Of a stretch of 38,936 nt of DNA, positions 21,018-22,719 are shown one piece after another. Both the position numbers and the translations under genes were made by a program. The notes beneath the pieces were generated by a model, which saw only the letters and a program-made list of their open reading frames with translations, was not told the DNA's origin and ran no database searches. Each line of letters opens with the position of its first letter. Positions within the stretch are counted from its first letter, which is position 1. Location: assembly GCA_024103415.1 (NCBI GenBank), contig JAGFIR010000183.1:1-38936 (forward strand). Direction: 5' to 3'. Source of the stretch: Acidimicrobiales bacterium (GTDB taxonomy: Bacteria > Actinomycetota > Acidimicrobiia > Spongiisociales > ZC4RG35).

Positions 21018-21575
21018 ATGATCAGCACCAACGACGTACGACCCGGGATGGCACTCGAGCTCGAGGACGGGCTCTTCACCATCGTCGAGTACCAGCACGT
21101 CAAGCCAGGCAAGGGGCGCGCGTTCGTGCGGATGAAGCTCAAGAAGCTGGACACCGGCCAGGTCTTCGACCGGACCTTCCGGGCCGACGAGGACGTCACC
21201 CAGGCCAGGATCGACCGCTCCGACTACCAGTACCTCTACTCGGACGACCTCGGGTTCCACTTCATGAACCTCGACGACTACTCCCAGGTGGTGCTCTCCC
21301 CGGACGACGTGGGTGACGCTGCCGACTACCTCCTCGACGGCATGACGGTGACCGTCGCGTCCCACCAGGGCACCGCGATCGGAATCGAGTTGCCCGCGGC
21401 GGTCGAGATGGAGGTCACCTACGCCGAGCCGGCGGTCAAGGGCGACACCCGTCAGGCGGCCACCAAGACCGTCCGGGTGCAGACGGGGCTCGAGGTCCAG
21501 GTCCCCTTGTTCGTGGAGCAGGGCGATCGGATCAAGGTGGACACCCGCACCGGGGAATACCTGACCCGGGTATGA
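21018..21575 (+). CDS. efp: Elongation factor P
   Basis: EF-P relieves ribosomes stalled on polyproline. The 185 residues have the three-domain build: KOW-like N-domain (ISTNDVRPGMALELEDGLFT) with the loop KPGKGRAF carrying K32 at the tip, a first OB domain (FRADEDVTQARIDRSDYQYL, MNLDDYSQVVL) and a second OB domain with the signature KTVRVQTGLEVQVPLFVEQG and [13 protein letters not shown]. The loop lacks an RlmKL/EpmA-style context here, and no modification gene is nearby. The stop overlaps the next gene by 4 bp (ATGA), linking it to the nusB-like gene. Confidence 0.96.
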   Translation: MISTNDVRPGMALELEDGLFTIVEYQHVKPGKGRAFVRMKLKKLDTGQVFDRTFRADEDVTQARIDRSDYQYLYSDDLGFHFMNLDDYSQVVLSPDDVGDAADYLLDGMTVTVASHQGTAIGIELPAAVEMEVTYAEPAVKGDTRQAATKTVRVQTGLEVQVPLFVEQGDRIKVDTRTGEYLTRV

Positions 21576-22099
21576 CCGTCACCCTGCCGGGGTCGATGAC
21601 GGTCTCCGAGCTCGCTTCGATACTCGATCGAGGGGTGGCCGAGGTCGCCATCGTGCTCGCCGACATGAACGAGCCGTCCGATCAGGACGACGTGGTGCCG
21701 GGCTCGGTGGCGATCCGGGTGGCCGCGAAGTTGGGCGTGGAGGCCCGGGTGGAGCCCAGGGACCTCGCCCTGGAATACCTGTACGCCCGCGAGACACGGG
21801 GTGACCCGGCCGTCCCCGATGGCCGCGCGGGCGACATCGTCACCGGCGTCCTCGATCGACTGGAGGAGCTCGACAGCAGGATCGAGTCCGTGGCCCAACA
21901 CTGGACCGTGTCCCGCATGCCGGTCATCGACCGCAACGTGCTGCGGATCGCACTCCACGAGCTCGAGAACGACCCTGCCGTGCCCACCGCGGTGATCGTG
22001 TCCGAGGCGGTGCGCCTCGCCTCCACCTACTCCACCGAGCGCTCGGCCGCATTCGTCAACGGCGTGCTCTCGTCGCTGGCGCGCACCGTGCGCGGCTGA
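21572..22099 (+). CDS. nusB: NusB-like antitermination factor fused to an N-terminal IF2_N-type domain
   Basis: The C-terminal part (about 60-175) is NusB, the RNA-binding partner of NusE/S10 in antitermination on rRNA operons: [70 protein letters not shown] and the hallmark FVNGVL. The first 57 residues are not Nus[28 protein letters not shown] and [14 protein letters not shown] match the small helical domain found at the N-terminus of translation factor IF-2. Between ARETRG and GDIVTG the NusB core is shortened by roughly 25 residues compared with standard NusB. The start ATG 21572 overlaps the efp stop, so the extension is inside the operon and not an artefact of a distant start choice. 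Confidence 0.85.
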
Positions 22100-22167: not shown

Positions 22168-22719
22168 ATGGGGACAGCCCCCGCCCGGGCGTCGACCCGG
22201 GTGCTCGACGCCGACGACTGCCAGCGCGTCATCCGGCGAATCGCCCACGAGATCCTCGAGCGTCACCGCGGCGCTGACGACCTCGTCCTCCTCGGCATCA
22301 GGACCCGTGGCTCCCATCTCGCCCGCATCCTCGCCTCGGTGATCGGCGGGATCGAAGGCCACGATGTCCCGGTCTCCGACATCGACGTCACCTCCTACCG
22401 CGACGACCGCGAGCGCGTACCCGCCGCCGCCCCGGCCATCGCCGATGACGTCACCGTCACGGGGAAGCATGTCGTCGTGGTCGACGACGTGCTGTACACG
22501 GGTCGCACGGTCCGCGCCGCGATGGATGCGATCTCGGACACGGGCCGGGCCGCCTCGATCGAGCTGGCCGTGCTCGTCGACCGCGGTCACCGCGAGCTCC
22601 CGATCCGGGCCGACTACGTCGGCAAGAACCTGCCCACCTCGAGAAGCGAACGCGTCCGGGTCCGGGTGGCAGAGGTCGACGGTGACGACGGCGTCTGGAT
22701 CGAGAAGGGGGACTGGTGA
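22168..22719 (+). CDS. pyrR: Bifunctional pyr operon regulator/uracil phosphoribosyltransferase PyrR
   Basis: PyrR binds pyr leader RNA when UMP is high and also has uracil phosphoribosyltransferase activity. The 183 residues carry [34 protein letters not shown], the PyrR-typical [10 protein letters not shown], the PRPP loop [20 protein letters not shown], and [20 protein letters not shown], whose basic residues contribute to RNA binding in the family. It is the first gene of the operon, so it would control itself through the leader element just upstream. The stop overlaps pyrB (GTGA). Confidence 0.95.

Follow-up and report, generated by a model that had tools for sequence, protein, structure and literature searches.

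The question raised by this locus is whether the gene following efp in an Acidimicrobiales genome encodes a NusB protein that carries a domain of translation initiation factor IF-2, and what such a domain could do on an antitermination factor. A sequence-only reading of the window, by which we mean the whole 38,936-nucleotide stretch that was analyzed, had proposed an IF2_N domain fused to NusB and had suggested that the new domain takes the place of part of the NusB fold. As described below, the fusion is real: the protein is a NusB with an N-terminal IF-2 N2-type domain. Our search of the literature found no report of an IF2_N-NusB build, and the architecture appears to be undescribed.

The Fused Reading Frame and Its NusB Core

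The gene for elongation factor P (efp, 21018..21575, 185 aa), with its Pfam EFP_N, EFP OB, and EFP C-terminal domains, is followed on the same forward strand by the nusB fusion gene (21572..22099, 175 aa), and the efp stop and nusB start overlap as ATGA. The reading frame, its coordinates, and this overlap are as first read from the sequence; the frame begins with the ATG at 21572, and the stretch quoted in that reading, VTLPGSMTV, runs from residue 3. Downstream of nusB, the ORF list places a pyrR-like gene (22168..22719, forward strand), the first of a pyr cluster that continues with pyrB, pyrC, carA, and carB in that order, as recognized by sequence. In many relatives pyrR is found at the same position.

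The NusB core (residues 61–175, 21752..22096, forward strand) was delimited with Pfam, an alignment of 40 NusBs, and Foldseek. Pfam NusB (PF01029) matches residues 87–171 with an E of 4.4e-25 and 89 bits against a cut-off of 23.1, and the fusion protein scores 96.1 bits with NCBIfam TIGR01951, for which the cut-off is 88.35. The FVNGVL motif (residues 161–166, 22052..22069, forward strand) is present in the sequence and in the alignment, and the NusB helical fold is evidenced by Foldseek, where the top 16 matches are nearly all named NusB. The C-terminal assignment, which had been based on FVNGVL, is therefore secure. The genome from which the window comes (G000, 96% complete) contains a single NusB, which is the fused one; a second full-length copy, which would have marked the fusion as a possible decayed paralogue, was not found there, and that interpretation is ruled out. 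Relative to the NusB family (PF01029/TIGR01951; Mycobacterium tuberculosis 1eyv, Thermotoga maritima 1tzv), the C-terminal 115 residues are alike in scoring above the curated cut-off, in FVNGVL, in the helical fold, and in copy number, whereas the fusion differs by its extra N-terminal domain and by a missing helix α2, the latter being common to the whole order. RsmB/Fmu likewise carries a NusB-type fold within a multidomain ribosome-biogenesis protein, but its NusB domain is N-terminal to an rRNA methyltransferase and is not accompanied by an IF2_N domain.

An N-Terminal Domain Homologous to IF-2 N2

The N-terminal domain (residues 3–60, 21578..21751, forward strand) scores below threshold as a single sequence, with 12.2–12.3 bits against the Pfam IF2_N (PF04760) gathering cut-off of 25.3; the N-terminal 62 residues alone give an IF2_N E of 0.16, also below the cut-off. 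For single members of the domain, other families score roughly as high as IF2_N or higher, a PDB sequence search with the domain alone returned no match, and a PDB search with its profile returned weak matches, IF-2 among them. In most genomes, the IF-2 N2 of this lineage scores under the PF04760 cut-off as well (20.8 bits in G000).

An alignment of 11 fused N-terminal domains was compared by hhalign with the two IF2_N repeats that IF-2 carries in the same bacterial family. The comparison with N2, the second repeat and the one adjoining the G domain, yields a probability of 97.3%, an E of 2.7e-11, and a score of 54.5 over 59 ungapped columns; for N1, the first repeat, the probability is 2.7%, which rules out an origin from N1. 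The score of 54.5 compares with a maximum of 20.5 among 200 column-shuffled N2 alignments, 9.0 for the reversed alignment, and 19 for N1 against N2, both of which are genuine IF2_N domains. The profile-profile comparison thus gives a significant match, bears out the proposed IF2_N domain, and narrows it to the N2 type.

In a search of 138 whole genomes from the order, the profile of the fused domain ranked the 11 fused NusBs first, with 84–112 bits. The next matches began at 35 bits and lay nearly all in long IF-2 frames, at the place of N2; a handful of weaker ones fell in other frames. The genome G031 has, besides C70, a second match to the N2 profile (G031:C267:3555-3710, 29.6 bits, 574-aa frame), which is probably a split or duplicated IF-2 contig. 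An AF2 model of the domain built from fused sequences alone, with no IF-2 sequences, has a pLDDT of 94.7, and its four best PDB matches in Foldseek are all IF-2 N2, led by 7uiu (rmsd 1.5 Å, TM 0.83 by query length, E 4.8e-4, 28% identity over 60 columns). A chance likeness to a generic helix-turn-helix is ruled out by the shuffles, the reversed profile, the whole-genome search, and the fold search, all of which point to IF-2 N2. The domain is homologous to the IF-2 N2 sub-domain and shares its small fold.

The genuine IF-2 of the window's genome is encoded elsewhere (G000:C59), and the fusion frame lacks the IF-2 G domain and C-terminal domains. In the fused genomes IF-2 retains its own N1 and N2, and the domain on NusB is therefore an extra copy. 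While the fold is common to the fused domain and IF-2 N2 (IF2_N, PF04760; 7uiu), the fused domain stands without an attached G domain, and the glycine-rich AGAGQ loop of N2 is replaced in it by an acidic loop of the EPDxPDD type.

An IF2_N domain joined to another protein is also seen in the window's genus (G001), where the ORF from 1994 of L089 fuses an N1-type IF2_N (27.3 bits, above the Pfam cut-off) to a membrane protein of the O-antigen-ligase (Wzy_C) type, within an apparent exopolysaccharide locus.

Architecture of the Fusion

The full-length AF2 model (pLDDT 95.7, pTM 0.84) places the N2-type domain in strands 3–5 and 8–10, helices 11–17 and 22–31, strand 41–43, helix 44–53, and strand 58–60. 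Helix α1 of NusB (residues 62–76, 21755..21799, forward strand, from the AF2 secondary structure) begins one residue after the last of these strands, and the two domains are therefore joined without a flexible linker. No helix is modeled between residues 76 and 84; by AF2 and spacing counts, a short loop (residues 77–83, 21800..21820, forward strand) stands in place of the helix α2 of other NusBs.

It had been proposed that about 25 NusB residues appear to be missing, as if the new domain replaced part of the fold, and on both counts our data show otherwise. The spacing from the Y of α1 to the GV of α3 is 20–23 in the fused proteins and 20–28 in the other NusBs of the order, so that 20–28 covers all 49 NusBs of the order, with or without the N2-type domain; counted by eye, four class members outside the order have 26–29 and one other phylum member has 34. 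The NusB core has about 9 residues fewer than those of sister orders in the class, and about 11–18 fewer than the textbook NusBs of Escherichia coli, Bacillus subtilis, and M. tuberculosis. As the order-wide alignment shows, most of helix α2 is missing from the NusBs of this order, the majority of which start almost directly at the α1 motif (EPRDLAL..LY-like). Since the shortening is found with or without the N2-type domain, the domain replaces no part of the NusB fold, and replacement of α2 is ruled out; as a trait of the whole order, the loss of α2 makes a variant within the NusB family and gives no ground for exclusion from it.

Distribution, Gain, and Loss

The same full-length fusion occurs in 10 other genomes of the family at 51–57% identity, so that it is found in 11 of the family's 34 genomes, in 8 genera and one clade. 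It is absent from all 104 other genomes of the order, and none was found outside the clade in the sampled class (395 genomes). In the sampled phylum (198 genomes), matches through the N-terminal domain were seen only in two members of the fused clade; two phylum matches that reach into this domain were rejected as fusions because of in-frame stops. A contig scan returned only distant NusBs, and the matches found by similarity among phage records were partial and confined to the NusB region.

In a FastTree phylogeny of concatenated NusB core, EF-P, and IF-2, all fused genomes fall in one clade with a support of 0.994. The clade also includes four unfused members, all three g7 genomes and G002, which belongs to the window's genus. 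The simplest history suggested by the tree is a single gain with two losses (in G002 and in g7), though the exact number is not fixed, since some internal nodes are weak (0.16–0.66) and the NusB core is among the proteins from which the tree was built. In G002 and g7, the domain profile matches only IF-2 and no free-standing copy of the domain, and where the loss is inferred the clean ATGA overlap of efp and nusB is retained. Most of these relatives are draft assemblies. Another member of the window's genus, G001, has no efp or nusB match, probably owing to an assembly gap, and in L074 (G007) the nusB start looks frameshifted, with the α1 region unreadable in the frame of the rest, which may be an assembly error.

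In genus g10 of the same family (L069, L070, L071, L072, and L081, with L080 partial), the gene directly after efp encodes NusB fused in frame to CarA, in proteins of 544–547 aa with NusB followed by the CPSase_sm_chain and GATase domains. No pyrR was found in these loci. This is a second, independent NusB fusion in the family.

Possible Roles of the Added Domain

Simple NG86 estimates over these short stretches, for pairs within genus g11, give a dN/dS of about 0.19–0.55 for the N-terminal domain versus about 0.11–0.19 for the NusB core. The N2-type domain is thus constrained, though less so than the NusB core, and is kept under purifying selection in most members of the clade. It contains conserved motifs such as IPAR and is acidic, with a net charge of −1 to −8, as is the IF-2 N2 of the same species (−4 to −11).

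This conservation bears on whether the domain is made at all. Translation might normally begin inside the frame and yield an ordinary short NusB, the fusion then being partly an annotation effect; the window does have a GTG at residue 60 with GGAGG before it. We consider this highly improbable and reject it, as neither the GTG nor its upstream motif is conserved among the 11 fused loci, the domain is under purifying selection, and 10 of the 11 retain the ATG overlapping the efp stop.

The window's genome has a boxA-like 20-mer that lies about 200 nt upstream of the 16S gene and has 2 mismatches to the consensus; 200 shuffles gave none. The rRNA antitermination complex comprises NusA, NusB, S10, NusG, SuhB, and S4, with NusB binding boxA in the nascent rRNA, and the way in which rRNA antitermination aids 30S assembly has been stated to be unclear (PMC10250234). 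The IF-2 N2 of Pseudomonas aeruginosa and E. coli binds helix h16 of 16S rRNA at the 30S shoulder (PMC9192638), at a site close to uS4 (PMC12820379). With N2 binding h16 near uS4, NusB binding boxA, S4 in the same complex, and a boxA-like site upstream of 16S, a contact of boxA-bound NusB with h16 and S4 is conceivable. As elsewhere, NusB together with S10 would bind the boxA-like sequence of the rRNA leader, and the N2-type domain would make an additional contact with the small subunit, whether nascent or finished, at the h16 site near S4 that IF-2 N2 occupies. The early 5′ domain of 16S, or the 30S subunit and its S4, could in this way be held close to the antitermination complex, which may help rRNA folding and subunit assembly or provide coupling to the first 30S subunits. 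We tentatively favor the idea that the fused domain is an extra 30S/h16 contact on boxA-bound NusB. The fuller proposal is more doubtful: a single small protein would hold boxA RNA and S10 in one domain and h16/S4 in a borrowed IF-2 domain, and would thereby link rRNA antitermination physically with folding of the small subunit or with the first 30S subunits to initiate. Several observations speak against the h16 contact. An acidic domain is unfavorable to RNA contact, though the IF-2 N2 of the same species is acidic too; a hand alignment shows that the fused domain does not preserve S277/V278/K279, the contact residues of P. aeruginosa, which the IF-2 N2 of the family does not preserve either; and there are two apparent losses of the domain.

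Almost as likely is a near-neutral structural add-on, in which an N2 copy captured at the efp-nusB junction folds well and slightly stabilizes the trimmed NusB, has no dedicated partner, and is slowly being lost. The two inferred losses, one of them in the window's genus and with the ATGA overlap cleanly retained, show the domain to be dispensable and so argue against an indispensable role; the amino acid sequence of the domain evolves about twice as fast as the NusB core, and the absence of the putative h16 contact residues also fits this view. Against such an add-on are the intact frame across 8 genera, the dN/dS below 1 within g11, and the conserved motifs. Moreover, the short NusB works without the domain in all other genera, and the domain is therefore not needed for folding. 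An unlikely third possibility is that the partner of the domain is not the ribosome but NusA or another Nus factor, to which it would anchor NusB in the manner of domain I/N1 of E. coli IF-2, which binds NusA KH2-AR1 directly (PMC12297416). NusA and NusB do belong to the same antitermination complex, and in both cases an IF2_N-type module is joined to the transcription machinery. In E. coli, however, that module is in IF-2 and the contact is made by N1 plus the strands that follow, whereas the module on NusB is of the N2 type, with the poor N1 match noted above, and the E. coli N1-NusA mode appears incompatible with antitermination (PMC12297416); this makes a NusA tether less likely.

Conclusions

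The suggestion that the fusion links transcription and translation physically is plausible, and an extra 30S/h16 contact is the form of it that we tentatively prefer. The fusion shows that the module with which IF-2 grips the 30S subunit can leave IF-2 and join a transcription antitermination factor. This natural fusion, for which close relatives without the domain serve as built-in controls, makes a direct contact between antitermination and the 30S subunit testable.
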